Positions 311-29,365 of a stretch of DNA of 32,877 nt are shown here, one piece after another (within the stretch, counting starts at the first letter, position 1; every line of letters begins with the position of its first letter). The translations under genes and the position numbers were made by a program. Where the stretch lies: assembly GCA_030830875.1 (NCBI GenBank), contig JAURMD010000167.1, positions 1-32,877 of the forward strand, in the 5' to 3' direction. Origin of the DNA: Thermoplasmatota archaeon (lineage in GTDB: Archaea; Thermoplasmatota; Poseidoniia; Poseidoniales; Poseidoniaceae). Below the pieces are notes generated by a model, which was given only the letters and a program-made list of their open reading frames with translations, was not told where the DNA came from and ran no database searches.

Positions 311-344
311 ACGGGCAATGTAGTTTAGCGTGGACGTGGACACC

Positions 345-1529: not shown

Positions 1530-1530
1530 A

Positions 1531-1604
1531 GTCCATCGGACACCTTCGCACCGAAGGTGCGACGGACAGGGCGTCACGGCGGGCTCCGGCCCGCCGTGAC
1601 GTCC
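1531..1604 (+). promoter_or_regulatory. Two consecutive intercistronic stem-loops between the binding protein and permease genes
   Basis: caccttcg-cac-cgaaggtg (1541-1559) and gtcacggcggg-ctccgg-cccgccgtgac (1573-1600), both perfect inverted repeats. Confidence 0.6.
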
Positions 1605-1640
1605 ACCGGTCGAGGGGTGTGAGAGCGGGAGCGTGGAGCG

Positions 1641-9850: not shown

Positions 9851-9935
9851 GCTGCTTCGACACCTTCGCTGTGCATCATCTTGCCGTCGGAGAACGGAGC
9901 AAGTGTTGAAGCCACGAATTTGTCCATCGGGTCGC

Positions 9936-10676: not shown

Positions 10677-11338
10677 TGTCGACAGGTCGCCTCATCGTGC
10701 TCGAAGGCCCTGACCACGTCGGCCGTTCCCTGCACGTCCGCTTGCTCTCAGAGCACCTCGAAGCCCGCGGCGTCGCGACCATGACGACCGGGCTTGCACG
10801 GTCGCTGCTCCTCGGTGAGCAGCTGAAAGGGCGGGACCGCGCGCTGCATGACCTCAACTGGCGCACGCGTGCCCTGCTCTACGCAACGGACCTGCATGAC
10901 CAGGTGATTCACAACATTCGTCCGGCCTTGGAGGCAGGTTTCGTGGTCATCGCGGACCGCTACACCCTGACCCCAGAAATTCGTGAGGGCATCCGCGGCG
11001 GGGACGTGGAGTGGGTGCGCAGCCTCTACCTTGACGTGCCAACCCCCGACATGACCATCGTGCTCAGCGCTGGCCCACGTCGTTTGCTGAACCGCATCCT
11101 CTTCGGCGAAGAACTGCAGACCCTTGTGGACTTTGAAGCCGGAATGGACCTCAACCTGTCGCGGTCGGTCACCACGTCCTTCCTTGAGTACCAGAAGTTG
11201 CTTCGTAAGGCGTTCACGGACGCTGCAGAGGAACAAGGATTCCCCGTGGTGCAGACGCGGCACTCTGTGGAGGAAGTCCACGCTGAAATTTGGCGGGTGC
11301 TTCAGCCGCACGTGTCCGACATGCTCCACCCCCTGTGA
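10673..11338 (+). CDS. Second thymidylate kinase-like protein with degenerate Walker A
   Basis: LIVLEGPDHVGRSLHVRLLSEHLEARG...FVVIADRYTLTPEIREG; same family as the preceding ORF and translationally coupled (GTG at 10673 / ATG at 10676 overlapping the TGA). Confidence 0.8.
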   Translation: MMSTGRLIVLEGPDHVGRSLHVRLLSEHLEARGVATMTTGLARSLLLGEQLKGRDRALHDLNWRTRALLYATDLHDQVIHNIRPALEAGFVVIADRYTLTPEIREGIRGGDVEWVRSLYLDVPTPDMTIVLSAGPRRLLNRILFGEELQTLVDFEAGMDLNLSRSVTTSFLEYQKLLRKAFTDAAEEQGFPVVQTRHSVEEVHAEIWRVLQPHVSDMLHPL

Positions 11339-11737: not shown

Positions 11738-11886
11738 GCGGTGGTGCGGCGGCCTGTACCCTTCAAGATGACCGCCAAATGTGGTCCACCTTGCCCCTGC
11801 TCGGACGCTGCGTTTCATCGTCGTGCTTGCCCATGGGAGGACTGATAAAGGGGAGGAAGGTCGGCAGGACGCTGGATGGTGTGACC

Positions 11887-12489
11887 ATGACGAAGGGGCT
11901 CTATCAGCACGTCCGTGAAAACTGGGGCCAGCCAAAGGCGAACCAGCCCCATATGCACCGTCAATCCCGGATGGCGCAGTGGCGACGTGAAGAGGTGTTC
12001 ACCCGCGTCGACAAACCGACCCGCATCGACGCCGCTCGCCGCCTTGGATACAAGGCCAAGCAAGGCGTCGTTGTCGTGCGCACGCGCGTTCGCCGTGGTG
12101 GCCTCCGCAAGGGCAAGGTGCACATGAAGCGCAAGCCCTCGAAGGCCGGTGTGACCAAGATCACGATGGCGAAGAGCATCCAACGCATCGCAGAGGAGCG
12201 CTGCTCTCGCCACTTCCCCAACCTTGAGGTCTTGAATTCGTACTGGGTCGGCCAGGATGGCAAGCACAAGTACTACGAGGTCATCCTCATCGATACGCAC
12301 CACCCTGCCATCATCAACGACAAGCAGCTTGGAGTGTTCTCCGAAGCCAACGGCAACAAGGGCCACCGCGGTCGCGCAGAGCGCGGTCTGACCTCAGCCG
12401 GCAAGCGCGGTCGAGGCCTGTACCGCAAGGGCAAGGGTGCGGAAAAGATCCGTCCCTCCCTCAAGGCGAACCTCAACCGCGGCAAGTGA
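11887..12489 (+). CDS. rpl15e: 50S ribosomal protein L15e
   Basis: MTKGLYQHVRENW...RIDAARRLGYKAKQGVVVVRTRVRRGGLRKGK...VLNSYWVGQDGKHKYYEVILIDTHHPAI...GKRGRGLYRKGKGAEKIRPS, a clear L15e. Confidence 0.97.
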   Translation: MTKGLYQHVRENWGQPKANQPHMHRQSRMAQWRREEVFTRVDKPTRIDAARRLGYKAKQGVVVVRTRVRRGGLRKGKVHMKRKPSKAGVTKITMAKSIQRIAEERCSRHFPNLEVLNSYWVGQDGKHKYYEVILIDTHHPAIINDKQLGVFSEANGNKGHRGRAERGLTSAGKRGRGLYRKGKGAEKIRPSLKANLNRGK

Positions 12490-12549
12490 ACCAACACCTT
12501 TGGCGTTGGGTTCTAAGGGCGGACCGCCCGTCATCGCCTTGGGGCCGTT

Positions 12550-12801
12550 ATGGACATCAGCACCGTGCGCGGAAAGGAGGTGTTCCTTCCGGACGGTCGC
12601 CTGCTCGGCAAAGTGCACGACGCCGTCATCGATGTGGAGGGCTGCGCCTGCTCCCACCTTTTCGTGATTGGGACCCCCGACCACCTCGTCGAACAAGGGA
12701 TCGATGTTGCGGTGCCTTGGCGGTGGGTTCGTGGCGTTGGGGATGCAGTGATCCTTCGCTGGTTCCCAGCGACGCCCATCCCGTTGCCAGGTCGTGGCTG
12801 A
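12550..12801 (+). CDS. PRC-barrel domain protein
   Basis: MDISTVRGKEVFLPDGRLLGKVHDAVIDVEGCACSHLFV...GIDVAVPWRWVRGVGDAVIL, a typical archaeal PRC-barrel. Confidence 0.82.
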   Translation: MDISTVRGKEVFLPDGRLLGKVHDAVIDVEGCACSHLFVIGTPDHLVEQGIDVAVPWRWVRGVGDAVILRWFPATPIPLPGRG

Positions 12802-12802
12802 G

Positions 12803-13954
12803 ATGCTCGACCTGCACGTCCTCGGCACGTCGTCGGCCCGTCCGACCTCGGAACGTGCGGTAAGCGGCTCCGTGGTGAGCACCGTTGAAGGATTGGTGGT
12901 CATCGACCCGGGTGAGGGCTTTCAAGACCGATTTGCTGAGGCTCGTCGTCACCTTCGAAGCGTTGGAGGCGAGCCAAGGTTGCGCCCTCGCCGCGTTGGA
13001 GCGGTGCTGCTGAGCCACGGACACCTCGATCACACATGGGGTTTGTTGCCGTGGTTGCAAACCTCTGGTCTTGACGGCCGGACTGAACCGCTTGAGGTGG
13101 CTGGACCGGTTGACCCGTCCACCTTCGAGCGTCTGGTGAAGGACGGATGCGATGCGGCCCTTGAGGGCGGTGAGCCCTCCGACCTCTTGCGGCAAATTCA
13201 GCAATGGCGCGCGTTGGGCGCCACCTCAGAGCGGCTTGGCTATCCCGTGTGCTGGCGACTGGGGGACGTGCGTGGCGGTCGGTGGGCACGCATCGAGGAC
13301 GACGGCAGCGTGTCGCCCGATGTCGAGGCTTCATGGGCCCCGAACGGCTGGGCGAAGTTGCACGTCGTCCCCGTTGTGTCGACGTATTCTGTCGACTCGT
13401 GCGGGTGGCAGATCCTTCACGCCTCAGGCCAAGGACGGGTGGAGGGTGAACGCCTCGAGGCGCTTCGCTTGACCGAGGACGAACGACTGCGGCTCTTTCG
13501 AGAAGGACACCTCGACCAAGGGGACGCAAGGATCGAGTTGGACACCTACCGTGGACCCGGCACGCCATCGCTGTCGCTGGTCGTCTCTGGGGACACGGCT
13601 GCTCCTGGCCTCGTCGTGCACGGTCAAGCACCTGACCTCTTGGTACACGAAGCAACCTTCCTCGAAGCCGAGCAGGACAAAGCAGAGGCGCACCTCCACA
13701 GCACCTGCTCAGGGGCGGCAAGAACGGCGATGTCAAGCCAAGCGCGTGTGCTCGCGTTGACGCATTTCAGCGCTCGTATCACCGACCTCGGCGTGGCGCT
13801 TCGCGAAGCAACGGCGGTGCTTCCGGACGGTTTCCCGTGCGTGGCCCTCGTGGACGGAGACCGCTTGCGCATCGATGCGCACGGAGCGGTTGAACATCAC
13901 CGACGACGCGACGGTGGATGGACGGTCACACGGCTCGCGGAGAGCAGACGTTGA
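12803..13954 (+). CDS. Metallo-beta-lactamase-fold protein, RNase Z-like
   Basis: LHVLGTSSARPTSERAVSGSVV, SHGHLDHTWGL (HxHxDH), LSLVVSGDTAAP, LLVHEATFLEAEQDKAEAHLHSTCSGAARTA, LALTHFSARI. ORF begins at 12794 with an alternative ATG at 12803. Confidence 0.82.
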   Translation: MLDLHVLGTSSARPTSERAVSGSVVSTVEGLVVIDPGEGFQDRFAEARRHLRSVGGEPRLRPRRVGAVLLSHGHLDHTWGLLPWLQTSGLDGRTEPLEVAGPVDPSTFERLVKDGCDAALEGGEPSDLLRQIQQWRALGATSERLGYPVCWRLGDVRGGRWARIEDDGSVSPDVEASWAPNGWAKLHVVPVVSTYSVDSCGWQILHASGQGRVEGERLEALRLTEDERLRLFREGHLDQGDARIELDTYRGPGTPSLSLVVSGDTAAPGLVVHGQAPDLLVHEATFLEAEQDKAEAHLHSTCSGAARTAMSSQARVLALTHFSARITDLGVALREATAVLPDGFPCVALVDGDRLRIDAHGAVEHHRRRDGGWTVTRLAESRR

Positions 13955-13981: not shown

Positions 13982-16444
13982 ATGCAGCGGTGCCTCTGGC
14001 TGGTCCTCCTGCTGCTGCTGACAAGCCTTCCTGCTCAGGCATCGGTTGCTGGACGTGCGGCTCCGGAGTGTGCAGAAGCGTTGCTTGCCGACGTGTCGGG
14101 GGCGGTGGGGATTGACGCTGGAACGTGCCTGAGTGTGAACCTCGGTACGCTCGAGCCCGGCGCCGTGTTGGAGGTGGACGTGCTGGTGATCGACGATGCG
14201 GTGGACCTGCTGGTGTTCGACGCTGCTGCCCGTTCTCCCTACGACCTCGGTCAGGGGTACAGAGCCGGCATGACCCTTCCCGCAAGCACAGAAGCCCTGC
14301 TTGGAGAGCAGGGTTTCCATTGGCAGGTTCCTCCCTCAATCCAACCGAAATCGTGGTCCTTTGTGTTTGACAACCTCGCCCATGACGGCGATCAAGGGAT
14401 GGGCGATCAAGGTGGAGCACGCGCTACAATCAGCCTGCTCGTGACTCCTGTAAGCGAAGGAACGCTCACGGTCGTTCACGACCTCTACGGTCTTGAAGCC
14501 AACACGTCGACGTGGTTGACGGCTCCTGCTGGGCTGTCCCTCGATGCTGGCACGTCCTTGTTGCTCGAGGCGTGGCCGCTCGAAGGCAGCGGAGACCTGC
14601 TCTTGCTGAGCGAAGCCGAGCGGACAGCATTCGAAGGGGGCGGGTCGGTCGAACCTCAGGCCGGCCGTTCGATGCTTGACGTGGACGGGGACTCCACCCT
14701 GAGTTGGGTCCTTCCCTCCGCGCTCGAGGGAACGCCGATGCACCTCCTTTTCGATGCCACAAACCGCACCGTAGGTGGCGCTGTGGCAGGGGACGTCCGC
14801 TCGACCGTTCGCCTCACCCTCGACCCTCCGTTGACCCCAATGGTTCACGACAATGCCAACGGTTCGACCACCATCGGTGTCGCCATCGAACTTGACGCCG
14901 ATGCGACACCCGACCGATTGATGCGGCTTGAGGCATGGTCGTGGGACCTGGAGGGAGGGGTGGACGCCAACGGTGGGGTGCTGAACGGCGACGAATGGGG
15001 CGTCGATGCAAGCACCTCGGCAAGGTGGAACTCACCCGGAACGAAAACCATCACCCTGAGCGTACGGGACGTCGATGGCCGAACGGCCAGCACAACCCAC
15101 ACGGTTGACGTGAGCGATGTGGTTGCACCTGTGGCTGCTGTCGCTTCGCTTGGGGAAGAGCAACCGATCACCGATGGCTACCGCATCGGTTTGGACGAAC
15201 TGCTCCACCTCTCTTGCGAACCTTCCACCGACGACCACCGCATCGACGCTTGCTCATGGTCCATCGACGGCGCAGCCGCCGGTCAGAACACGACCTTGAT
15301 TTCGTCGTGGTCAAGCCCCGGTGAGCACACGGTTCGTCTGACCGTGACCGACCCCTCGGGTGGTGCTGACGTTCTCGAACGTCGCGTTGTGGTGACCGAC
15401 CCATCTCCGCCGTCCATCACGCCGGGTTCCGTCTCCGCACTGCCTGCATCGGTGGAGGTCGGGGCTCAGACGGTGGTGAGCGTGGTCGTTGAGGACGACG
15501 TCGATGCTGCCGAGGACCTTGTCGTGCACTGGGACCTCGACCCCTTGGTGGATTCGGACGGCAATGGTATCAAGGACGACGATCCGGACGCCGTTGGCCC
15601 TCAGGTGGCGCTCTCGTTCAACGATGTTGGTACGCAGACGGTGGTCATCACCGTCGAGGACCCGTCCGGAAACCGCGACCGTGTGGTGTGGAGCGTGGAG
15701 GTGACGTCCTCCTCGTCCACCTCACGCGGGGGCTCATGGATGGGGATCGCCCTCCTGCTCATCGTGGTCTGCGTTGCCGTTTCTGCCGTAGTCCTTCGTG
15801 CCCGACGGTCGCGGGGGCCTGAAGCCACAGTCGAACAGGAGCCCTCCGATGAGGAACGTGCTGAAGCGGCCAAAGCCGCAGAAATGGCGAGCATTTACGG
15901 GGCCAGCACGGCGTCCGCTGCACCGCAGGACGTGTACGCCTCACAGACCACGCTCATGACGTCGCGACCAGCCACGGTGAACGCAGCATCAAGCGCCGCT
16001 TGGAGCGAAGCCTCACAGGCCTTGTTCGATGAAGTCCCATCGGGAGCGAGGGCCCCCACAGGGGCCGAGGGCCTTGCTTCGTTGATGGACGAGGACGCAA
16101 CGTCCACCGAGTCGAACACGGTGGCCGATCTTTGGAGTCCTGTTGAAGCGGAGGCGCCGCCAACACCGGTTCAATCTTTGGAGGCCACGTCTGTCGAACC
16201 GGTTGCGGGGGGCCGCGTTTCGCTCCCTGCCGGCTTCGATGCCTTCCTCAACGGCGGGACGGCTCCTGCACCCCTCGTGAAGGCGACAGAACCGACCCCA
16301 GCGATTGCCACCGACCTTCCAACGACCTGTCCAGCCTGCAGCCAGCGCTTCATCGCCCGACTGCCAGAGGACCTCCAGGCCGCGAGGGCTGCATGCCCAT
16401 CCTGCGGGGGGCACGTGACCGTACGTCGTCCTCCCCTTGCGTGA
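13982..16444 (+). CDS. Secreted/membrane-anchored PKD-domain surface protein with C-terminal zinc ribbon
   Basis: N-terminal signal (LWLVLLLLLTSLPAQA); PKD-like repeats (WNSPGTKTITLSVRDVDG, WSSPGEHTVRLTVTDPSG, FNDVGTQTVVITVEDPSG); TM WMGIALLLIVVCVAVSAVVL followed by RARR; tail CPAC-x18-CPSC. Confidence 0.85.
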   Translation: MQRCLWLVLLLLLTSLPAQASVAGRAAPECAEALLADVSGAVGIDAGTCLSVNLGTLEPGAVLEVDVLVIDDAVDLLVFDAAARSPYDLGQGYRAGMTLPASTEALLGEQGFHWQVPPSIQPKSWSFVFDNLAHDGDQGMGDQGGARATISLLVTPVSEGTLTVVHDLYGLEANTSTWLTAPAGLSLDAGTSLLLEAWPLEGSGDLLLLSEAERTAFEGGGSVEPQAGRSMLDVDGDSTLSWVLPSALEGTPMHLLFDATNRTVGGAVAGDVRSTVRLTLDPPLTPMVHDNANGSTTIGVAIELDADATPDRLMRLEAWSWDLEGGVDANGGVLNGDEWGVDASTSARWNSPGTKTITLSVRDVDGRTASTTHTVDVSDVVAPVAAVASLGEEQPITDGYRIGLDELLHLSCEPSTDDHRIDACSWSIDGAAAGQNTTLISSWSSPGEHTVRLTVTDPSGGADVLERRVVVTDPSPPSITPGSVSALPASVEVGAQTVVSVVVEDDVDAAEDLVVHWDLDPLVDSDGNGIKDDDPDAVGPQVALSFNDVGTQTVVITVEDPSGNRDRVVWSVEVTSSSSTSRGGSWMGIALLLIVVCVAVSAVVLRARRSRGPEATVEQEPSDEERAEAAKAAEMASIYGASTASAAPQDVYASQTTLMTSRPATVNAASSAAWSEASQALFDEVPSGARAPTGAEGLASLMDEDATSTESNTVADLWSPVEAEAPPTPVQSLEATSVEPVAGGRVSLPAGFDAFLNGGTAPAPLVKATEPTPAIATDLPTTCPACSQRFIARLPEDLQAARAACPSCGGHVTVRRPPLA

Positions 16445-16505
16445 CGTGCATCTGAAGGCTCACGTCAGGGATGGTTTCACAAAGCACCTCGGACCGACTC
16501 CCTTC

Positions 16506-19500
16506 ATGGAGACGTTCGCGCCACGGCTCCTGCATCGAGGGGTTGCGCCGCTCCCAGGAGGGCGGCGTCCAGCCGCGGTGTTCTTGCTGCTCATGGTCCT
16601 CCTTCCTGCAGCACATCCAGTGACGACGGCTGAGGTCGTCGCCGATGACTTTGGCATCCTCGATGCGATGGACGAGTTGCTCGCGGAACGCACCGCGTCC
16701 AGTTCAGACCTTCTGGCAGAAGCCGCGGCCTCGTCGGCCCTCGCGTCCGTGGATGCAGCAGCACGGCCCGTAGGCGACGGCGACGCCATCACCGAGGTAG
16801 GAACCTTCCTGGACGGGGTGGAGCTTCGTGACGCCTCACCCATGCCAGAAGACCACCCACGGGCCTACGAGTACCTCTTGGACGCCGAGAACCACAGCGG
16901 GGCTGGACTTCCCGACAACCTCTTCCAAACCTTGTTTTCACTGGAGAACTGGCAACTCAATGACCCGCTCGCGTTCGGCCTCAACACCTACGCGATTTAC
17001 CTCAATTTCACAACCAAGAACGATGGACCGTCCTACGAGTCGTGGACGGCAGGGACCTTCACAGGTGACCTCATCGTTGGCGGAGCGCTCAGTCTGTTCG
17101 ACAACCAGATCGACATCGACGGCGACGAGGACCCAGATGTTGTCGTGGAATTGACGATCCAAGGCCTTGTGGAGCGTGGCCAAGGATGGGACATCGAACT
17201 CTCAGACGGCTTGGTACCGGTCCCCACAACGCTTTGGCTTCGGCCAATTTTCCAATGGCGCGTCCACCAAATCGACGCAGACGCTCCACTATGGGACGAC
17301 ATGGCCACGCTCGAAGTCAGCTTGATGAAGGGGTTCGCCTTTGACGCCACGCTTCAGGATTCGTCCGCGTATTCCATCGTCATTGACACCCGCTTTACCC
17401 AACCGCCGCACGAATTTCGCGTCGGCGTCGGCCTTCAAAGGATGACGTTTGACATCGAAGGAACCTTCACCGACGTCTCGAGCCTGTTGGCCGGCCTCGT
17501 GTTTGGTGGCCTTCCAGACGGGACCTTCACCCTGGCCTCGATCTCGGCCCCCTATGCCATCACCATCCAAAATCCCGACGCGGACGGCGGCTCCCTTCAG
17601 ACGGAGTGCGCCGACGAAATCTGGTACGACCCTGCTTCGCAGCCACGCGTCGACAGCCACAGCGATCGATGCGGCTTCGGCGTGGGTGTAGGTTTCGTGC
17701 ACTTCGCACCACCGCCCGCGGACGGCGGCGTCCCGGACGTGCTCGAACTCGCCTACCTCGACACGGGATTCCACCCCGAAGGCGAGGGCCGTCGCCTGCC
17801 TTCTGAAATTGACTTGACGTTGCGGAACGACAACCTCGGCGACAACAGCTTCGATACGGTGGAAGTCTTCACCGACCGTGACGCCGATGTTTGGGTTCAC
17901 TATTTCGAAGACAGGAGCGCCATCACGGACGGGTCTGGTGGATTTGGTAACGTTTCCGACGCTCGAATTTGGATTCGCGGATTGCCTTCAGGAACGCTCC
18001 CGGATGAGGAAATTGAGGCCTTGTTCACGATGATTGGAGAAAAGCCCGGGAGCGTCAATTTGCCCGGCGACATGCCGGACCGGCTTTCCCTGTTCATCGG
18101 CATCAAGAACTTCTCAGGTGACGCATCGGCGAACGAGAACGACCCGACGCTGCCCGTCAATCCCGCGACGCCTCCGAACACGCTGATTGCCGTGGCAGCG
18201 GTGGACGACATCCCCTTGCTTCAGTACGAGTCCTCCTTCAAACGTGGAGGCTGGGCGAGCGACGCCTCCTCGATGACGCTCACCATCGAGGACCTGCCTC
18301 CTGTCGTGTTGGTGCATGGAACGTTCGAAGTCGGCACAAGCGGTGTCGACCGCATTCGTCCGGACACATCCAGCCTCAACGTTGTGAGCCAGATGCTTGA
18401 CAACGCGCTCATCGCCCTCGTGGAGATCATCCTCGATGTGGGCACCATCGTCAACAGCCTCCCCACCGCTGTGGTGGGGACGGCGGGCAGCACCGGCGGT
18501 TCGGTAACCGTGGCGTGTTACACGCAGGTGGCCGCCGGCTGGCAGGACGGCACCCAGCGCCTCACGGCAGAAGTGGGCCGGCTGACCTTCGCCCTTGCTT
18601 CCAGCGATCAGCCCTGGTTGCCTGACCAAGACCACCTGTTGCTGTCCGACGACACCGCGCTTGCTCAGGTGACGGGCCGCACCGGACCGGTGGACCCCTT
18701 GGTGCCCATCGCGATGAGCGCGCGCATGAGCGGTGTGAGTTCGGTGACGCAGACCTTTGATCCAAGCGACGGGAGACGCGTGCTACAGTTGGACGGCTCA
18801 AGCACAGAATCCCTTGTGGTTGGGCATGTTCTGCACACGTCGGGGAACCTTGCAACGGCCCAAACGCAGGCGGCAAAAGTGTCGAACCGTCCTGACACCT
18901 TGCGGTTGGTTCAGCAACCCGACCGTATCGCGTACGAAGCGAGCGCACCAATCGGCACCATCACCTACGGGGGACAGGACGGGACGCAACGCAACGCGCT
19001 CAGGTTGGTCGGCATCCCTTCCGATTTTGAATTGGTGATTGGAACTGAAATAGGGTACGTCTCAAGCGCCGCCCTTCAGAGCGTTGAGATTCAGGCCAGC
19101 AATGCCAGCGTTCCAATGACGATGGACGGCGACCACCTCCGCTTCTTGGTCAGCGAAGATGGCACGAGCCTCTCCATGCGGTTGTCTGACGTGACACGCA
19201 TGCGTCGATTGCTTCCCTTGGATCCTGGGTCGGCCGGTCCGGAGGGCAACAGCAGATTGGAAATGCAGCGAACGTCCTCCTCGCCCTTCCGTGTCTTGCT
19301 TGAAGACAGCACGGTGTACGACGATCCGATGTTGGGATTGAACGGCCGATTGGTGGTCGATCCCCTTCCTGCGAACATCGAACTCGCCGTGCCCGAAGAC
19401 GAGGAGGGATTGGGGCTGGATCTTCCAGACTTTGGAACTGAAGCAGGTGTCGAGGGTCTGTCCTTTTTCCTCGGCGACCTCGTGACCCTCGGGCGGCTGG

Positions 19501-21185
19501 CCAACGATTTGGTTCATGCCATCACTCGAGACCTTGGCGGCGTGGTGGGCGAGGAACGCGACATGGCGCTTGGGATGGATCTGGTGACCGGCGAACCCTT
19601 CGACCTGACCGCCGACGTGCGCAAGGGCACAACAGCGGGGACACCGAACTGGGTGCACGGGTTGGCCATGAATGCAGACGAACGGCTCGTCCTCGAAACG
19701 AACCTCAGCCGATTGACCCGTTTGACCCTGTCTGGTCGCTTGACCCTTGAACGAATCCTCGAGGACGGCACGCTGACGGAGGCCGAAGTCGAGGAGGGAA
19801 CCTTGGTGCTGGAGACGGCGAACGTCACCGGCGCTTCCGATATCATGGACGTGCTCCGCGACGGCCGTCTTGGTGACGACGAAGTGGTCGCCTTCGATTT
19901 CGACAACTGGAGCGAGCAAGGGCTTGACCTCGTTCAACGTCGAGGATGGCACCTTCGAACATGGTTGCCACAACTCCCTGCAGGCGCCATCGAAATCGAC
20001 TATGATTTCCGCATGATCGAAGGTCGTCCCACCTATGAGATCGACATCGCCTTTGCCTCATGGTTGCCAGCATACGAGGACATGTCCGTTGTTGTGAAGG
20101 GGTTGAGCGGTCAAGACGTCGACCTGCGCCTCACGGGACTGGACACATCAAGGCCCAACGACGTTGTGGTTAACATGCTGTTCTACCAAGAGCGCAACCT
20201 GACCGTGCCTCGGCTCACGCTCGACATGCACTACGACGTCGGCGTTCGACTTGATTCCGCCCATGTTGTGTTTGTCGATCACACCACGTTCACACGTGCA
20301 GAGGCCCTCATTTTCGACGTTCCACGGAGCACAAACGTCGCGGCCACCATCGGTGACGTGCTTCGGCTTGACCTGACCGTTCCCGAAGAGCACCAGAACA
20401 ACGGGCGTTCAGCGGAGGCGCTGATGATTCAGCAGCATCGTTACCTCGAGGGCCGGTGGTGGCCGGCGACCGTGTTCATGCGGGACCTCCCCGGCGAACT
20501 TCACCTCAGCACGGACCCGAGCAGCGAGTTTGACATTCGAGCCGAAACCTCGTTCCAAGGTTTGTTCACAATGGATTACACATCGAACGGAGAGGACCTC
20601 GACCTGTTCGTTCAGGCGTCGGGCCGTGCTGTGGACAGCAAAGGGGACGTCACGATGCTTGCAGAGAACCTCCCCTCGACCTTCCGCCTCGCTCCGACCG
20701 CAGACCATGGCCTTGAAATCGCGTCGAGCGGTTCCGGAGTCGAACGGGTGTACATTCGCGTTGCTGACGTCCCGTCTTCACCCGGTGTGACCCTTACCTC
20801 ACTGGAAGTTGTCGGTGAGGACCTCAAGGGTGCCACCGTGCACATGACGCGGCTCGGGGGCGCCTACCCCATCATCGTCCTTGATGGCATCACCACTGGA
20901 CGTGTGATTGCCTCGGCCAACGCGGCCGTCGAACCCGGCAAAGTGGCACCTTTCCTCGCTGATCTGCCGTTGTTTGGAAGCATGCGCTTCGATGGCCGTG
21001 CCGTCATGCTTGACACCCAGTTCACCGGCATCTTGCCCTCCGCTTCTTCACTTGGTGTGAACGGCATGGTGAGCGACCTTTCCCTCGTCGGAAGCCTCAC
21101 CGGTGGAACGGTCGAAACAAGACACGTGCTCGTCGTCGAGCCCATCACGACGGCCCTCGCGACCCTTGTTGCATGGGTGGTGTGA
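16506..21185 (+). CDS. Very large secreted beta-rich surface protein of unknown function
   Basis: Long ORF (16437-21185, 1582 aa; likely ATG at 16506), signal-like AAVFLLLMVLLPAAHPVTTA, acidic beta-rich sequence, repeated [D/N][LV]P-containing strands; weak hydrophobic C-terminus. Confidence 0.75.
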   Translation: METFAPRLLHRGVAPLPGGRRPAAVFLLLMVLLPAAHPVTTAEVVADDFGILDAMDELLAERTASSSDLLAEAAASSALASVDAAARPVGDGDAITEVGTFLDGVELRDASPMPEDHPRAYEYLLDAENHSGAGLPDNLFQTLFSLENWQLNDPLAFGLNTYAIYLNFTTKNDGPSYESWTAGTFTGDLIVGGALSLFDNQIDIDGDEDPDVVVELTIQGLVERGQGWDIELSDGLVPVPTTLWLRPIFQWRVHQIDADAPLWDDMATLEVSLMKGFAFDATLQDSSAYSIVIDTRFTQPPHEFRVGVGLQRMTFDIEGTFTDVSSLLAGLVFGGLPDGTFTLASISAPYAITIQNPDADGGSLQTECADEIWYDPASQPRVDSHSDRCGFGVGVGFVHFAPPPADGGVPDVLELAYLDTGFHPEGEGRRLPSEIDLTLRNDNLGDNSFDTVEVFTDRDADVWVHYFEDRSAITDGSGGFGNVSDARIWIRGLPSGTLPDEEIEALFTMIGEKPGSVNLPGDMPDRLSLFIGIKNFSGDASANENDPTLPVNPATPPNTLIAVAAVDDIPLLQYESSFKRGGWASDASSMTLTIEDLPPVVLVHGTFEVGTSGVDRIRPDTSSLNVVSQMLDNALIALVEIILDVGTIVNSLPTAVVGTAGSTGGSVTVACYTQVAAGWQDGTQRLTAEVGRLTFALASSDQPWLPDQDHLLLSDDTALAQVTGRTGPVDPLVPIAMSARMSGVSSVTQTFDPSDGRRVLQLDGSSTESLVVGHVLHTSGNLATAQTQAAKVSNRPDTLRLVQQPDRIAYEASAPIGTITYGGQDGTQRNALRLVGIPSDFELVIGTEIGYVSSAALQSVEIQASNASVPMTMDGDHLRFLVSEDGTSLSMRLSDVTRMRRLLPLDPGSAGPEGNSRLEMQRTSSSPFRVLLEDSTVYDDPMLGLNGRLVVDPLPANIELAVPEDEEGLGLDLPDFGTEAGVEGLSFFLGDLVTLGRLANDLVHAITRDLGGVVGEERDMALGMDLVTGEPFDLTADVRKGTTAGTPNWVHGLAMNADERLVLETNLSRLTRLTLSGRLTLERILEDGTLTEAEVEEGTLVLETANVTGASDIMDVLRDGRLGDDEVVAFDFDNWSEQGLDLVQRRGWHLRTWLPQLPAGAIEIDYDFRMIEGRPTYEIDIAFASWLPAYEDMSVVVKGLSGQDVDLRLTGLDTSRPNDVVVNMLFYQERNLTVPRLTLDMHYDVGVRLDSAHVVFVDHTTFTRAEALIFDVPRSTNVAATIGDVLRLDLTVPEEHQNNGRSAEALMIQQHRYLEGRWWPATVFMRDLPGELHLSTDPSSEFDIRAETSFQGLFTMDYTSNGEDLDLFVQASGRAVDSKGDVTMLAENLPSTFRLAPTADHGLEIASSGSGVERVYIRVADVPSSPGVTLTSLEVVGEDLKGATVHMTRLGGAYPIIVLDGITTGRVIASANAAVEPGKVAPFLADLPLFGSMRFDGRAVMLDTQFTGILPSASSLGVNGMVSDLSLVGSLTGGTVETRHVLVVEPITTALATLVAWVV

Positions 21186-21187
21186 GC

Positions 21188-21802
21188 ATGAACGACGTAC
21201 CGTTCACGCCGGACCCTGACAAGGGTCGACTGATCGACCGCGTTCGGCAGCAGATGGGGCTGGACGAAGACGTTCCCCACGAGGACGTCGTTCGCGCGGC
21301 TGAGGATGCTGCAGAACGCCTGAATCGGTTCCGAGAAGACATTCCAGTCACCAAAATCGCGATGGCCGGCGTTTCCCTGCTGCTGCTGTTCGGTTTGTTG
21401 TTGAGCGGATGGTATTGGATGCTGCCGCGTGACGGACTCACGGTGCACACAGTCTACATGCAAAAGGGTGGACACGTGGTGCTGGTCGAGGTGGAAAACG
21501 ACGGGTCCAGGCTCGTCACGGACGTCGAAGTGCAGGTTCGCTTCCTCGATGCTGAAGGCGAAGAACTGGACGTCATGGACACGCGCATGGACGGCGTCAG
21601 CGCGCACAGCGCGGTCGCAGGTGATGAGTTGGAGATGCAAGTCGTCGGGGCAACGGTGTGGGCGAACTACACCGTGTCCATTTCCCTCACCTGGACAGAT
21701 TATGCTGGAGACCGTCATACTGAGCGGTGGGAGCACGATGTCGGGGCGTGGGCGACCGAGGTCTTTGACGACCGCACCGCCCGTCGAACGTGGCCGTTCT
21801 GA
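21188..21802 (+). CDS. Single-pass membrane protein, cytoplasmic N-terminus and small extracellular beta domain
   Basis: 209 aa ORF (from 21173); soluble helical N-terminus, TM IAMAGVSLLLLFGLLLSGWYWML, then HVVLVEVENDGSRLVTDVEVQVRFLDAEGEEL resembling a small Ig-like/FxLYD-type domain. ATG at 21188 is 2 nt after the previous stop. Confidence 0.75.
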   Translation: MNDVPFTPDPDKGRLIDRVRQQMGLDEDVPHEDVVRAAEDAAERLNRFREDIPVTKIAMAGVSLLLLFGLLLSGWYWMLPRDGLTVHTVYMQKGGHVVLVEVENDGSRLVTDVEVQVRFLDAEGEELDVMDTRMDGVSAHSAVAGDELEMQVVGATVWANYTVSISLTWTDYAGDRHTERWEHDVGAWATEVFDDRTARRTWPF

Positions 21803-21830
21803 ACAAGGAGAATAGCACCACACCCCAAGC

Positions 21831-21840
21831 GATATAGTGG
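21831..21840 (+). promoter_or_regulatory. Candidate TATA-like element (gatatagtgg) upstream of the S8 protease
   Basis: AT-rich element about 25 nt before the ATG at 21861, which would give a near-leaderless transcript. Confidence 0.3.
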
Positions 21841-21860
21841 ACGCGCGGAGGCCTTAGCCT

Positions 21861-24800
21861 ATGTCGAACGGGCGTTGGCAGACCCCGCTGCTCCTCGTTC
21901 TTCTGCTCGTGTGCAGCCCGTGGACGGGGCTTGCGAAGAACGGGGTGGAGGCCGACAAGGAGGTTGCACTTCCTCCTCAAGGGTTCGCGGTCTCTGCGGA
22001 CGACTACCACGACTTTGTTGGCACCCTCAATGACGCAACGACGCCCGACCGGAGGTCCGGCGTCTCAGCCACTCGAATCGGTGTGTTTGAAAAAGAAGGG
22101 TGGACGGCCACTCGCCCCCTTCCCGCCGCATGGCTGCAACCGAGGCCAGATCTTCGGCTCGTTCTCGTTGATCCGGCAGTTCCGATGACGCAGGTCCGTT
22201 CGGAGCTTGCTGATCTTGCATCGATTGAGGTCCGGGAACTTGTGGCGCCGTCTGGACTGCTCTTGCAAGCCGCGCCCGACGCTTTCGGTGTGCTGGACCA
22301 GCGATCTGACCTGCTGGCGGTGCACAACGTTCCGGTCGCGATGTTGCTTGACGACGCGTACCTTGACGTGCTCCTGTTGGAAGGTGGCGTGGAGGCTTTG
22401 GTTGGTTCTGAAGTACGCCTCGAGGGATGGCGAGGTGAAGATGGCCCCGTGGCAGGTGTCGCGCTCTCTGGCCCCTCCCTCCACCTGCAGCAGCAGGTGG
22501 TTGAGGTGGCCGCGGAGGTGCTTTCGGACCCCGTTGAACTTGACGCAGGTCGATGGCGCGGCCGGCTCCAGACGAGCGACCTGTTTGGGCTTGCCATGCA
22601 ACCCTCACTGATGTGGGTCGGCCCCGAACCGGTCCATACCTTGCTCAACGATGTGGCACGGACCAACATGGAGGTCGCCCCCGTTGCCAATGGTTTCACC
22701 ACCTCGCTGAACGGTTCTGGCATCGTCGTCGCGGTCGCGGATTCAGGCCTCGATGCGGACCACGGCGATTTTGGCAACCGCATCATCTCAACCACCGACG
22801 TGGTCGGTGACGGCTCCACCGCCGATGCTCACTCCGGTCATGGCACGCACGTGTCCTGCACCGTTCTTGGGGACGGCAGCCGAGGTGGGTACGCAGGCAT
22901 CGCTCCACAGGCAGAGCTCATCTTCCAGGCGATGGAAAACGATCAATCCGGCCAATTCCTTTCCCCGAGCCTCAACTACATCCTCAACCAAGCCTACAAC
23001 GCTGGTGCTCGCATTCACACAAATTCGTGGGGCTCCTCGCAGGCCAGCGACCAAGGAAAATACACCTCGTCCTCCGAGGACGTCGATGACCGTTCGAACA
23101 CCTACGACCGGTACTACAACGGGCAAGAAGGTCTCCTGATCTTGTTCGCCGCTGGAAACGACGGTCCCGGCACTGGGACCGTGGGCTCGCCCTCCACCGC
23201 AAAGAACACCCTTACCGTTGGCAACCATCAGAACAGGTACGGGAACGCACCGGACGTGATCATGTCCGGTTCATCCCGGGGCCCGACCGACGATGGACGC
23301 ATCAAGCCGGACGTCGTTGCTCCTGGTGGCTATGTCCGGTCGTGCAGGGCGCAGGAAGCGCAGGACATCGCGGGGGCAACGTGGTCCAGCCAATACTACC
23401 TCGAATACACAGGGACCTCCATGGCCACACCAAACGCGGCAGGAGCAGCGGCATTGGTGCGTGAATACTTGCTTGAAGTGGCCCAGCGTCCAGCCCCCCA
23501 GGGGGCCCTGATCAAGGCGCTGCTGATCCTTGGAGCCGAGGACATTGGGACCCGCAACATCCCCAACGACGACGAAGGATGGGGACGCATCAACCTCAGG
23601 GACACCCTCGCTCCGAGCGGAGGGCGAGGAATTTGGGTTGACGACCGCTCCGTTCTCTCGAAAACGGGGAACAGCAAGACGTACGTGTTCAACGTGACGT
23701 ACGCGAACAGTCCGTTCAAGGTCGTGCTCGCATGGTCGGACGAGCGAGGCAACCGCTTCTCCACAACGCAGCTCGTCAACGACCTCGACCTCGAAGTCAT
23801 TGCTCCTGACAACACCACGTACCTAGGCAACGTCTTCAGCAACGGTCGGAGCATTCAGGCCGGCTCGCACGACACGGTCAACAACGTCGAAGTGGTGCTT
23901 GTTGATGCGGCCCAGAAAGGCATCTGGGAGGTTCGCGTGAAGGACGGAAACCATGGGGGGTCGAAGGCGCAACCCTACGCGATCGCTGTTTCTGGTCAGG
24001 GCGTGAACGATTTGCGTCCGGACCCATTGATGGTCCCAGACAGCCTCACCATGGACGCTTCCATCCCTCAAGTCGGCGACCCCGTCAACCTGCTCAGTCA
24101 GGTCATGAACATGGGCAACGTCAAGGCAGAAGGGGTTGACGTGGCCTTCATCGTGGACGGTTCAGAACTCGACCGTGTGACGTTGGACCTTTCGCCAGGT
24201 GCGATTCGCACCCTGCCGTGGACCTGGACGCCGTCCGTTGCCGGGACGTCTGAACTGCTCCTTCGCGTGGATCCTGATGGCGTCATGGACGAGGTGCAGG
24301 AGAGCAACAACGACCTGCTCATCCCGGTGAACGTCAGCGCACCGGGGGTCAAGGTCTTCGCGAGCAATGACGAACAACGGGTCTTGACGTCTGTTCAAAC
24401 GACTTCGTCGTGGAACGTGACCTTGACCAACACGGCCCTGATCGACACCAACGCTTCGTTGAGTGCCACCTCCGTCGTGCGTTCCTCGGATGGGGCGTCC
24501 ATGCCTTGGTACGTAGGATTGACCGTGGCCAACTTCAGCCTTGCAGGCCGTGGCGAAGCCTCGGTTGAGGTGACTGTGGTGCATCAAGCAGGCCCGTCAC
24601 CAGGCACCTACCTCGTTCCGTTGACCGGTCTCGACGTGGACAACGGCGTCTCCTATCCCTACAACCTCACCCTCATCGTCCCTTCGCTCGCCGAAGCGAG
24701 GATGTCCCTGGATTACAGCATCGTTCCCCTGCACCCTACCGAGCCAACGTCCTTCGAGGTTGGCTTCATCAACGACGGAAACGGACCAATTGGGTACGAC

Positions 24801-26414
24801 CTCTTCCTTCAAGCACCAACCGGTTGGTCCGCAGGCTTTGATGACCTTGGGTCTGAAGCCGGCGCGACGTCTGGTTCAACTGGATTGATGCAACAGGGAG
24901 CTGAGCGTCTAGTCAGCATCACCGTCAAACCTCCTGCGTTGAAAACCATCGCCGGGGCCGAACGGACCGTCACGCTCACCGCAATATCGCAGACCGATCC
25001 AAGCATCTCCTCGGCTTGGGACATTCCGATGGAGGTCGTCAGCGTACGTGACGTCTTGTTGACCTTGGAGTCAACCTTCGCTGCAATGCGCCCCGACGCC
25101 TCGGTCGCGCTGGTGTTCAGTTTGGAAAACCGAGGGAACGTTGACCTCGAACTGACGCCTTCCTTCGTGCTGCCCAGCGGCTGGAGCATGGACGCAGATA
25201 CCTCGCCCATCGCCCTCGCATGGACAGGGAGTGAAAACGTCCGGTACATCCTCAACGGTGACGGCAGCGGCAGGAGCGGTGCCATTGAAGTTCGGTTTGG
25301 CGACGCAGAGGGGCGCTTCACATGGGCCTCCACCATCGAAGTGCGTGACCTTCCTGCTCCGACCCTCGACTTCAACCGGCTCCTGTTGGAGGACGGCACG
25401 TCCTACGACACGCCCTACGGAGGCGGAAGCCACCCCTCAGGGGAAGCCCTGCTGTTCTCTTGGCTTGTTGGAAACGACGGTTCTGCACCATGGTCTCCAA
25501 CCGTGGCCCTCGACCTCGATGCCGGTCTGTTTGGCTCCTGCGAAGGTCCCGGGAACGTGCTTCCAGGTGCGTTCGAAGTGTTGGCTTGTGAAATCGTCAT
25601 TCCCACCGACCTGCCGGCCGGGGCGGAGGCCGCCTTCCGCATTGTGTTGGACGACGGCGAGGTGGAGCGTTCGACCGAAGTCGGATTGTTGGTCGCTGAA
25701 CTTCGCTCGCTTCGTGTTGATGGGCCAGAAGAGGTGCTGCTCGACGGCGAGGCCTCCACGTCGTCATCCTGGACCGTGACGAACGTGGGTAACGTTCGAT
25801 TGCAAGAAGTGATCTCCTTGCAGGCAACGGAGGGCTGGGTCGCCGTGCTCGACGGCGCCAGCAGCATCGACCTTGAACCAGGGGAGGCCCGCGTGCTTCG
25901 AATTGATGTGGAGCGAGAGACCGATGGAGAGGGCAGCCTTACCGTGAACATCGGAAACGGGATCGAAGGTGGTAACCTCATCGTTCCGCTTCGTGCACGG
26001 GGATTAGGGGTCATCGATGCTGATGGGACGTCCAGCCTCCTGCTTGCAGGCGGAGGGTTGGCCCTCGTGGTTCTTGTTGGTGCCGCAGCCTTGGTGCTTC
26101 GTGGTCGACGTGAACAGGTGCCTTCACGACCAACGCTCCCAAGCGTTGCGGGCAGCGTGACGACTGTTGCACCGCCGTCGACCATGGCTCAGACCGCTCA
26201 ACCGTCCTCTGCTTCGGTGGTCGCTCCAACCGCTCCGACTTCAGAAGCACGTCCATCCGTGCCGTGCTGGGGATGCAGGCAAACCATCGAAGGAGCGACG
26301 GTGGGTTGCCGAGGGTGTGGAGCCCGATTCCATGCTCCAGGGAGCACCGCCTGCATCCTTCCATCGTCATGCCCAAATTGTGGGCAGCCAGCCTCCACCT
26401 TCGTGGCCGCGTGA
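21861..26414 (+). CDS. Membrane-anchored subtilisin-like (S8) serine protease with CARDB/NEW3-like domains and C-terminal Cys/His cluster
   Basis: Catalytic Asp VVAVADSGLDADH, His HSGHGTHVS, Ser YTGTSMATPNAAGAAALV; Kp43-like C-terminal jelly roll (NDLDLEVIAPDNTTYLGN...GIWEVRVKDG); CARDB-like DPLMVPDSLTMDASIPQVGDPVNLLSQVMNMGNVKAEGVDVAFIVDG; TM LLLAGGGLALVVLVGAAALVL then RGRRE. Confidence 0.95.
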   Translation: MSNGRWQTPLLLVLLLVCSPWTGLAKNGVEADKEVALPPQGFAVSADDYHDFVGTLNDATTPDRRSGVSATRIGVFEKEGWTATRPLPAAWLQPRPDLRLVLVDPAVPMTQVRSELADLASIEVRELVAPSGLLLQAAPDAFGVLDQRSDLLAVHNVPVAMLLDDAYLDVLLLEGGVEALVGSEVRLEGWRGEDGPVAGVALSGPSLHLQQQVVEVAAEVLSDPVELDAGRWRGRLQTSDLFGLAMQPSLMWVGPEPVHTLLNDVARTNMEVAPVANGFTTSLNGSGIVVAVADSGLDADHGDFGNRIISTTDVVGDGSTADAHSGHGTHVSCTVLGDGSRGGYAGIAPQAELIFQAMENDQSGQFLSPSLNYILNQAYNAGARIHTNSWGSSQASDQGKYTSSSEDVDDRSNTYDRYYNGQEGLLILFAAGNDGPGTGTVGSPSTAKNTLTVGNHQNRYGNAPDVIMSGSSRGPTDDGRIKPDVVAPGGYVRSCRAQEAQDIAGATWSSQYYLEYTGTSMATPNAAGAAALVREYLLEVAQRPAPQGALIKALLILGAEDIGTRNIPNDDEGWGRINLRDTLAPSGGRGIWVDDRSVLSKTGNSKTYVFNVTYANSPFKVVLAWSDERGNRFSTTQLVNDLDLEVIAPDNTTYLGNVFSNGRSIQAGSHDTVNNVEVVLVDAAQKGIWEVRVKDGNHGGSKAQPYAIAVSGQGVNDLRPDPLMVPDSLTMDASIPQVGDPVNLLSQVMNMGNVKAEGVDVAFIVDGSELDRVTLDLSPGAIRTLPWTWTPSVAGTSELLLRVDPDGVMDEVQESNNDLLIPVNVSAPGVKVFASNDEQRVLTSVQTTSSWNVTLTNTALIDTNASLSATSVVRSSDGASMPWYVGLTVANFSLAGRGEASVEVTVVHQAGPSPGTYLVPLTGLDVDNGVSYPYNLTLIVPSLAEARMSLDYSIVPLHPTEPTSFEVGFINDGNGPIGYDLFLQAPTGWSAGFDDLGSEAGATSGSTGLMQQGAERLVSITVKPPALKTIAGAERTVTLTAISQTDPSISSAWDIPMEVVSVRDVLLTLESTFAAMRPDASVALVFSLENRGNVDLELTPSFVLPSGWSMDADTSPIALAWTGSENVRYILNGDGSGRSGAIEVRFGDAEGRFTWASTIEVRDLPAPTLDFNRLLLEDGTSYDTPYGGGSHPSGEALLFSWLVGNDGSAPWSPTVALDLDAGLFGSCEGPGNVLPGAFEVLACEIVIPTDLPAGAEAAFRIVLDDGEVERSTEVGLLVAELRSLRVDGPEEVLLDGEASTSSSWTVTNVGNVRLQEVISLQATEGWVAVLDGASSIDLEPGEARVLRIDVERETDGEGSLTVNIGNGIEGGNLIVPLRARGLGVIDADGTSSLLLAGGGLALVVLVGAAALVLRGRREQVPSRPTLPSVAGSVTTVAPPSTMAQTAQPSSASVVAPTAPTSEARPSVPCWGCRQTIEGATVGCRGCGARFHAPGSTACILPSSCPNCGQPASTFVAA

Positions 26415-29365
26415 TGGTGCAGGAAGGGGCAGGTCTTTCATGGGAGGCACGACCACCAAGGGGCATGGTGCAAGGGCCGTCCACCGCGCTGCGCCAATTC
26501 CGGTCCATCGGCCTTGTCGTCCTGATGATGCTCTCGACGCTACCGTTGCTGGCCAATCCTGTCATGGCCGACGGCCGCGATGCCAGCATCGTGCTGACCG
26601 TCACGCCTTCATCGCTCGTCGTCAATCCCGGTGAGTCGGGTGAGTACACGGTGCGAGTCTACAACACGGGTTCGAACCCGGTCACGGTGCAGTTGACGGC
26701 GGCTGAGGAGCAAACTCAGGAATGCAACCAGTACACTTCGGTCATCACTCAAATTTCCGGTGCCATTGATGCTGGATCCTATGAGGAAACGTCGATGAAC
26801 GTCACCCTGTCTCAATTAGCGGAAGGAACCTGCGACACCACCATCACCGCGACAGCCACGGAGCAACCCGAACCGCCCGAATTGCCGGGACAGCCGGCCA
26901 GCGAGGAGAAGACCGTCACCACCGAAGCAGGAGACGGTTCTGGGAGCGTGCTTTACGGCGTCGACCTCCGTGCAGTCGGTCCGTCCGCCAAGGACTGGAC
27001 TGGCGAGGATGTTGTTGAATGGGACATGGAAGTGGAAAACACCGGCCGTGCGGACGCGAACGTGGTCCTGACCGCAGAGGAGCGCGACGATCCTGGCTGC
27101 GCCGACGCGGGCGACTTCTCCATCGAGATCGACCCGTCTTCGGTTTCAGTATCAAGCGAAGACGTGGAATCGGTCACCGTATCCACAGAAGTGCCTGAAG
27201 GCCAAGATTCGGACTTGTTTTGTTGGGACATCGTTGCCACCGTACAGAACGATCCCACCCAAAACGCCAGCGACACGCAGGAAATTTCGCTCGACGTCCC
27301 CGAACTTCGAACCTGCGACGCGACCTTGTCCCCGACCAGCCTCAGCGTGGACCCGGGAAAGACGAAGAGCACCACGGTGACCTTTGAGAACACGGGGAAC
27401 ACGGAATGGAGCATCAGCGTCGCCAAAACGGGCGCGAAGGCGGCGTGGGTGACCGTCGATGGGGCCTCCTCGGGCCTGCTGCCCTACGACACATCCTCTG
27501 ATCGCCGGTCCTTCGATCTCGACGTTACTCCAGACGATACGGTGGAGGCCGGCTCCGTGACCACCATCGTTGTTCAGGGGCGCGATGGCACGAACGTGGC
27601 GTGCGATGTCGAGCTGCGTGTGACCGTCGGTCAAACGCGTGGGGCGTCGCTGAGCCTTCCTCAGCCCATGATGAGCAACGTCGAACCGGGAACAAGCCGC
27701 TCGACGACCTTCAGCGTGACCAACCTTGGCAACGGAATGGACAGTTTCCGCGTCAGCGCTTCGGCCCCGCCCAGCGGATGGGTCGTCTCCTTCGACGTCA
27801 GCACCGTCTCCGTCGGCTCAAAACATTCCTCGGACCGCAGCGCTGACGTTCAGGTCGAAGTCACCGTTCCGCTGAGCGCCCTCGCGACCCAAGAAGTGGA
27901 AATTACAATCTCTGTGCTGCCCGGAACTGGCGGCGAGGCCTACGATGAGGTCGTGTTGCGGGTCACCGTTGCAGAATCCCATGGCATGGACATCACGGCC
28001 AGCGCAACGCGTCAACGGGGACGGCTGGACTCGGAACTGCGCTTCCCTATCTCCATCGAGAACCTTGGAAACGTTGACGCAACCTTCCGATGCGTTGTCA
28101 TGTCACAGAGCCCAGATGAATGGCCGGTTCATTACGAGGACCGCGACGGCATCACCCTCGTCGAAATCGATGTGCCTGCCCGCGATGAACTGACGGTGGA
28201 CCTCGTGGTTCGGGTGCGCGGAGCCGAGGACCTCGACACCATTCAAATCGTTGCTCGAATCATCAATACAGACCACAGCGGAGCCGTGGACGACGACGGC
28301 GACGGACTTCCTGACAACCAAAAGGAAGTCATGGTCACCGCGACCCGTTCGGACAAATTGTACGCCATGGACGTCAGGTTTGATGCAGGGCTGACGGGCG
28401 ACACCCAGCGGGTGGAACTTCCACCCGGTGGAAGCACCACCATCGATCTTTGGATCCGCAACACAGGCAATGCTTCTGCCGACATGGCCCTGTTCGAACT
28501 CTCCGGACTGGAGGGCATCGCGACCCGCGAACTGAGCGCCTACGGTATCCCCTTGGGCGACACGATGCTGGTTCCCGTCGGATACGGCGTCTGGGACAAG
28601 AGCGTCAATGGATTCGTTCGGGCTGCCTCAGGTGCACCCCTGACGTCGCCAAGCATGTCCGGGGCAGAACAGATCATGGTTGGGCTTGACGACTTCGCCG
28701 AAAAGCAGGCCGAGTACGAAGCCCGGCCATACGAAGTGCTTGTGCAACTCGTGATCACCGTCAACGCCGGTGCCGAGACTGGCGATGGTGGCACGCTGGA
28801 CCTGTTGGTGTTGAGTGAAAACAACACCGCGAACCGAAGCGGCTTCGTAAGCCTCGTTCTCGACGTGCGCGTCATTGAGGACCTGTCCTTCGACATCGAC
28901 GAGATGGAGTTGGAGGCCAACATCACCTATCCCGAAACCGCGACCTTTGAGGTGACCATCGTCAACGAAGGCAACATCGAAAGCGAGGCACGGATCTTCA
29001 CCTCCGATGAACTGCGCGGATGGAGCGTTCGCTTCACGGACCTCGAAAACCTGCCATGCACCACCGAAGAAGGCGAACTTCTCTGCACGATGGAGCCTGG
29101 AGAGCGGTTGACCCTCAAGGTGGTCGTCGGTCCACCGTTTGATGCTTCGGTGGACGACGAGTTCACCTTCACGGTCTCCGTTGAGCCCACGGACGGGGGT
29201 GTGTTCAACCGGCGAAACATCGAGTTGACCGTGCACGGCGCGAACCCAACTGGCCTGCTGTCCCTCTCCTCTGAGGCCGTTACCACGATTGGTGTCAGCG
29301 TGATCGGGTTGCTTGCGGTCGGCGTTGTGGTTCAAGCCTTGAGCAGCCGAAAGCGCACCGTTTGA
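26414..29365 (+). CDS. Secreted, C-terminally TM-anchored surface protein with multiple Ig-like/NEW3-like repeats
   Basis: ORF 26264-29365 with ATG at 26414 overlapping the upstream TGA (TGATG); signal GLVVLMMLSTLPLLANPVMA; repeats with NTGSNPV, ENTGRADA, ENTGNTEW, TNLGNGMD, ENLGNVDA, RNTGNASA, VNEGNIES; C-terminal TM ending SSRKRTV. Confidence 0.88.
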   Translation: MVQEGAGLSWEARPPRGMVQGPSTALRQFRSIGLVVLMMLSTLPLLANPVMADGRDASIVLTVTPSSLVVNPGESGEYTVRVYNTGSNPVTVQLTAAEEQTQECNQYTSVITQISGAIDAGSYEETSMNVTLSQLAEGTCDTTITATATEQPEPPELPGQPASEEKTVTTEAGDGSGSVLYGVDLRAVGPSAKDWTGEDVVEWDMEVENTGRADANVVLTAEERDDPGCADAGDFSIEIDPSSVSVSSEDVESVTVSTEVPEGQDSDLFCWDIVATVQNDPTQNASDTQEISLDVPELRTCDATLSPTSLSVDPGKTKSTTVTFENTGNTEWSISVAKTGAKAAWVTVDGASSGLLPYDTSSDRRSFDLDVTPDDTVEAGSVTTIVVQGRDGTNVACDVELRVTVGQTRGASLSLPQPMMSNVEPGTSRSTTFSVTNLGNGMDSFRVSASAPPSGWVVSFDVSTVSVGSKHSSDRSADVQVEVTVPLSALATQEVEITISVLPGTGGEAYDEVVLRVTVAESHGMDITASATRQRGRLDSELRFPISIENLGNVDATFRCVVMSQSPDEWPVHYEDRDGITLVEIDVPARDELTVDLVVRVRGAEDLDTIQIVARIINTDHSGAVDDDGDGLPDNQKEVMVTATRSDKLYAMDVRFDAGLTGDTQRVELPPGGSTTIDLWIRNTGNASADMALFELSGLEGIATRELSAYGIPLGDTMLVPVGYGVWDKSVNGFVRAASGAPLTSPSMSGAEQIMVGLDDFAEKQAEYEARPYEVLVQLVITVNAGAETGDGGTLDLLVLSENNTANRSGFVSLVLDVRVIEDLSFDIDEMELEANITYPETATFEVTIVNEGNIESEARIFTSDELRGWSVRFTDLENLPCTTEEGELLCTMEPGERLTLKVVVGPPFDASVDDEFTFTVSVEPTDGGVFNRRNIELTVHGANPTGLLSLSSEAVTTIGVSVIGLLAVGVVVQALSSRKRTV

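Follow-up and report, generated by a model that had tools for sequence, protein, structure and literature searches.

The window, by which we mean the whole analysed stretch of 32,877 nucleotides, comes from a Ca. Poseidoniales (Marine Group II, MGII) MAG of 1.8 Mb that is 95% complete. The locus consists of five consecutive open reading frames on the + strand (Table 1), which encode a PKD protein (A), a protein of about 1.5 kaa (B), a small TM protein (C), an S8 protease (D) and an Ig-like protein (E). Upstream of A are the genes for ribosomal protein L15e and a metallo-beta-lactamase-fold protein (11779-13954), the latter of which we read as RNase Z (rnz), and downstream of E the complex I genes nuoA-B-C-D-H follow from position 29493 onward, so A-E lie between rnz and nuoA. 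The same window also holds a branched-chain amino acid ABC transporter operon (330-6570), with a 1144 aa protein that is a fusion of two permease domains, and a tandem pair of thymidylate-kinase-like genes with a 4-base overlap (9795-11338).

Table 1. Genes and features of the five-gene locus, in positions of the window.
Feature	Position	Strand	Content	Basis
Gene A	13982..16444	+	Signal peptide, PKD domains, single TM, linker, C-terminal 4-Cys zinc ribbon	Translation, Pfam, topology
A TM segment	15740..15796	+	Residues 587-605	Hydropathy 3.05
A zinc-ribbon ligands	16328..16405	+	C783, C786, C805, C808	Alignment of relatives
Gene B	16506..21185	+	Secreted all-beta protein of ~1.56 kaa, family absent from Pfam; conserved hydrophobic extreme C-terminus	
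Gene C	21173..21802	+	N-terminal cytosolic segment, one TM, extracellular FxLYD-like domain; alternative start ATG 21188	
C TM segment	21347-21403	+		Hydropathy
Gene D	21861..26414	+	Signal, pro-region, S8, probable P-domain, CARDB + Ig-like region, TM, linker, RING-like tail	Translation, Pfam
D S8 catalytic domain	22713..23585	+		Pfam S8 1e-48
D TM segment	26040..26096	+	Residues 1394-1412	Hydropathy
D RING-like C4HC3 tail	26265..26381	+	C1469 to C1507	Alignment, hhalign, AF2, Foldseek
Gene E	26465..29365	+	Signal, Ig-like repeats (choice-of-anchor T family), C-terminal TM, short basic end	
E TM segment	29276-29332	+		Hydropathy

The first-pass annotation of this DNA had proposed a surface-protein locus whose genes should be neighbours in related genomes also, and the 80 relatives, for the most part MAGs, that we collected via the S8 domain bear this out. 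Order and strand of A-E are identical in 51 of the 51 loci that carry all five genes, which come from both families, and wherever both flanks are present the locus is complete (44/44); the remaining loci are broken at contig ends or contain weakly matched genes. Gene B is present in 143 of the 146 sampled genomes of Poseidoniales, and in 33 of the 33 with best quality. The best explanation is that the five-gene locus is part of the core genome of the order. Its adjacency could reflect shared transcription only. Of the short or overlapping junctions that the annotation had described, the overlaps are partly an artefact of upstream alternative starts, and we have dropped them as a sign of translational coupling. 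B probably starts at ATG 16506, which precedes its signal peptide, and not at TTG 16437, since in several relatives the N-terminal extension, when aligned, is interrupted by a stop codon. GTG 26264 merely reads the D tail in another frame for about 200 bases, and the start of E is therefore likely ATG 26465, so that D and E do not overlap. A scan for sigma-70 promoters and terminators, which is of little use in archaea, gave terminators at chance level and promoters slightly above it.

Protein A has at least two PKD domains (Pfam PKD_4 1e-11, PKD 3e-10), and a linker of about 175 aa leads from the TM to a tail with the pattern CxxC-x18-CxxC. The four Cys together with an F and a P are invariant in the tail alignment (A4). 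The tail alone matches Zn_ribbon_Nudix at 3.5e-6, and other ribbon families were matched in all relatives; full-length A scores below the cut-offs of the zinc-ribbon families. Both the CxxC...CxxC pattern and the conserved F and P are the same as in the ribbons of the Zn_ribbon_4/5/8 and FmdB kinds, but the ribbon of A terminates a PKD-TM-linker protein and is mostly below the family cut-offs.

In protein D the signal is followed by a pro-region of about 250 aa, and its subtilase domain (166.6 bits against a cut-off of 21.8) places it in peptidase S8. The His and Ser catalytic motifs are found in 70 of 70 relatives, and the Asp motif (D-S/T/A-G) in all of them except one truncated copy. A CARDB domain follows (Pfam 2.5e-12), and the orthologue in L117 has a P_proprotein domain above the cut-off (1.3e-6, 28.8 bits against 21), which Pfam does not report in the D of the window. 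Pro-region, S8, a probable P-domain (clear in L117), TM and a cytosolic tail with a presumed sorting or docking role are shared with the kexin/furin proprotein convertases, which are S8 proteins with type I membrane topology. That layout, together with the fact that D is syntenic throughout the order and adjoins large secreted proteins, could mean that D is a kexin/furin-like enzyme that matures surface proteins of the cell itself (A, B, E and further secreted proteins), with a tail that positions the convertase, and that it takes no part in nutrient acquisition. We consider this possible though on the unlikely side, as the eukaryotic convertases do not resemble D in its additional ectodomain of CARDB/Ig-like type (about 800 aa) and the P-domain is missing from the Pfam result for the window. 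D also differs from the convertases in being archaeal, and in having a RING-like zinc tail where these have short peptide signals. Our genome has 11 S8 matches in total, and D need thus not be its main degradative protease. One study reported S8 peptidases as extracellular in every MGII MAG that it covered (PMC6864105), and subtilase genes are reported to be highly transcribed in both families (PMC9723583), with the S8 gene specified in the available parts of neither account. D is likewise a secreted S8 protein of MGII, but the locus, the TM-zinc tail and the conserved neighbours are not described in those parts.

The tail of D follows a linker of about 55 aa and has seven Cys and one His in the order C-C-C-C-H-C-C-C. 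C,W,C,C,C,G,A,R,H,C,C,C are invariant in the alignment of 30 relatives from both families (A3), and the mean pairwise column identity is 0.46 in the tail against 0.16 over those linker columns that can be aligned, the linker otherwise being mostly gaps. The ligands of the D tail are thus conserved above chance. The annotation had also claimed that A and D are built on one plan and end in a cluster of Cys that is predicted to be on the cytoplasmic side. The Cys are conserved, with the seven Cys and the His kept in 66 of 68 complete D genes and the four Cys in 46 of 50 complete A genes. The predicted cytoplasmic position also holds, as judged from the heuristic of simple hydropathy and charge around the TM: the charge is positive-inside in 72/72 relatives for D, and for A it is more positive after the TM than before it in 56/57. 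The plan of signal, ectodomain, TM, linker and Cys tail is found in both proteins, but the tails are different domains, a 4-Cys ribbon and an eight-ligand C4HC3 domain that is RING/treble-clef-like, which makes it a shared layout and not a demonstrably homologous zinc module. That they are one domain is not supported, since the ligand sets differ and the local similarity is only partial (80%, E 1.4e-5, 32 columns).

Other proteins with the same TM-linker-zinc layout, for which the annotation had suggested a search, do exist. Our own genome, covered by profile searches, has a CARDB/Ig-TM-linker protein whose inner side carries two zinc ribbons in tandem (L126:497-2011, C106), and other Thermoplasmatota have a PKD-TM-linker-zinc-ribbon protein about 3 kb from C on the opposite strand (L199) and, in another family, an Ig-like-TM-linker protein with a C4HC3 tail that has the canonical RING-like H-x2-C spacing (L246:5644-8565). 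The layout is therefore a recurring theme in the phylum and not confined to the locus. No description of RING-tailed or zinc-ribbon PKD surface proteins was found in the literature searched.

The two tails can be lost separately. The ribbon of A is lost in L039-L044, which are close relatives (B is 71% identical) and have kept the D tail, and the D tail is replaced in L117, L249-L251 and L253, which have kept the ribbon. The L249-L255 genomes were picked because the D-tail profile matched nothing in them; their D gene is intact and syntenic with a changed ending, and most have kept the ribbon of A. The replacement in L249-L251 and L253, and also in L117, is a tail of the type PGWLWD...W, in L252 and L254 the ending is short and helical-looking, and in L255 there is almost nothing; no Pfam family covers the replacement tails. 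That each tail has been lost without the other argues against one obligate module of two fingers, and we consider an obligate pairing of the A and D tails as ruled out. The swapping of the D tail in place in some genera is what would be expected for a modular adaptor. The outer protein survives the loss or exchange of its tail, and some lineages can dispense with a tail (L039-L044 with the ribbon of A, L255 with the tail of D).

One could argue from this replaceability, and from the likeness of the A ribbon to generic ribbons, that the tails are passive, and act without any partner as caps that fold on the cytosolic side, and so stop translocation and fix the topology. The D tail has however been retained across the split of the two families, and its invariant residues that are not ligands (the W of CW and the GAR of CGARYH) go beyond what metal binding needs, which makes passive caps improbable. 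Both proteins are single-pass with conserved cytosolic domains on long linkers, and the tails might instead take part in transmembrane signalling, where ligand binding or proteolysis on the outside alters the zinc tails, so that these bring in regulators from the cytosol or act as sensors of redox or zinc. This we find quite improbable, as the locus lacks a kinase, a response regulator or any other effector, the tails are lost independently, and the segment after the TM of D varies from 73 to 171 residues among the relatives and would be a poor relay. The role that we infer as the best for the tails is docking.

The profile of the D tail matched 109 of the 127 sampled genomes of Poseidoniales and none of the sampled MGIII genomes, with weak matches in 23 genomes of other Thermoplasmatota. 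These weak matches include proteins that end in Pfam Prok-RING_1 (PF14446; up to 57.7 bits against a cut-off of 29.1), and an alignment of nine such tails (A6) was compared with the D-tail alignment by hhalign, which gave 98.1% probability and E 9.7e-14 with the eight ligand positions aligned; the A ribbon as a control in the same comparison gave 69% and E 4e-5. The tail of D itself stays below the gathering score of 29.1 with 11.7 bits in the window and 15.1 bits in L105, and the best relative reaches E 8.6e-5. By profile comparison the D tail is thus a divergent relative of Prok-RING_1, and by the curated score not a member. It aligns with bona fide members across the ligands, but the spacing from His to the next Cys is longer (about x6 instead of x2), and it forms the inner terminus of a surface protease. 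The AF2 model of the tail has a pLDDT of 84.7, and its top match in Foldseek is RING1B/BMI1 (prob 0.94, E 0.06), although the RING matches are mixed with rubredoxins, and the fold class is therefore suggestive only. It is very improbable that the tail belongs to an archaeal ubiquitin-like system, as a RING ligase of E3-like kind bound to the membrane, in spite of its homology to Prok-RING_1 and the RING among its structural neighbours, since E2 (UQ_con, PF00179) is essentially absent from the order (1/146 genomes, 0/33 of the best), the score of the tail is below the Pfam cut-off, and no ubiquitin-like, E1 or JAMM gene was found in the window. Prok-RING-like ends occur in quite different proteins as well. 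Soluble proteins of about 1.6 kaa in Thermoplasmatota with small genomes end in a bona fide or near Prok-RING_1 and have a conserved neighbourhood (L240, L241, L243, L244, L245), and an oligopeptide ABC transporter ATPase has a C-terminal Prok-RING-like zinc tail (L247:7692-8876).

Protein E belongs to the choice-of-anchor T family NF041740 of NCBIfam (1.9e-20, 73.1 bits against a cut-off of 70), and has gained cytosolic or TM modules in some lineages. Lineage-specific C-terminal extensions beyond the TM are seen in L039-L044, L095 and L097; in the first of these it is a DUF4234-like multi-TM region, and in L097 a domain of about 230 aa without any Pfam family.

Protein B did not match any family in Pfam, NCBIfam or the PDB sequences. 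An AF2 model of residues 383-1582 from 28 sequences is mostly beta (pLDDT 75.6), and a Foldseek search of the PDB with it gave no confident match, the best being ApoB100 with E 3.8e-4 but prob 0.13 and TM 0.08. We have rejected the idea of an AsmA-like or ApoB-like lipid-carrying beta protein as there is no significant fold match; the matches to ApoB100, LptD and SusC are those of any large beta protein. C matches FxLYD of NCBIfam at 2.3e-4, just below the cut-off. Within the sample, homologues of B are found in MGIII and a further 14 families of Thermoplasmatota, several of which had contributed to the search profile (f13, f20, f21, f28 and f34 had not). In many of these genomes a small TM protein directly follows B; its similarity to C is detectable in MGIII and f8, and in others it resembles C in size and layout. 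Homologues of A, D and E were not detected beside B-C in the other Thermoplasmatota. The simplest reading is thus that B-C is an ancestral cassette, and that A, D and E probably joined it later in Poseidoniales.

Our explanation, which we consider to have about an even chance of being right, is that the locus encodes a surface assembly for proteolysis and attachment that is core to the lineage and has exchangeable cytosolic docking tails. It is based on the synteny, the domain content, the topology signals, the conservation of the ligands and the replacement of the tails; from these we infer a complex of A-E, the binding of zinc and docking of a partner by the tails, and external protein as the substrate. 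The products of A-E would form a single assembly on the cell surface, in which B and C would be an older secreted and membrane-bound pair that acts as a scaffold, and D an outward-facing, membrane-anchored serine protease of the kexin type. A and E could be membrane-anchored PKD/Ig-like stalks that hold or present the substrate, or that attach cells to particles. The cytosolic tails, a zinc ribbon in A and a RING-like binuclear zinc domain in D, would be folded docking knobs that tie D and the PKD stalk to a partner in the cytosol or close to the membrane, and in that way set the clustering or position of the two proteins. Other short tails can take the place of these knobs with the outer machine kept. 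There is also a further-reaching account, to which we give tentative credence at best: B-C might be an undescribed envelope machine across much of Thermoplasmatota on which the Poseidoniales built a transmembrane proteolysis complex, with D coupled through its RING-like tail to a cytosolic partner, and with the inner adaptor exchanged in several genera as the outer machine stayed fixed.

To our knowledge Marine Group II has no cultured representative, and it is thought to live on proteins. Among planktonic archaea it is the most abundant group in the surface waters of the ocean (PMC6461757). The locus looks like a conserved and undescribed surface machine, the inner connector of which has been replaced in some lineages. 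The B-C pair, probably the most ancient part of the locus, was not singled out by the first-pass annotation, and the large family of B, missing from Pfam, is of note together with an outward protease that has a conserved zinc-type domain directed inward. The replaced tails are a natural experiment on the role of the cytosolic end, and the locus is a specific and testable candidate for the way in which MGII retain and cleave protein on the surface of the cell.
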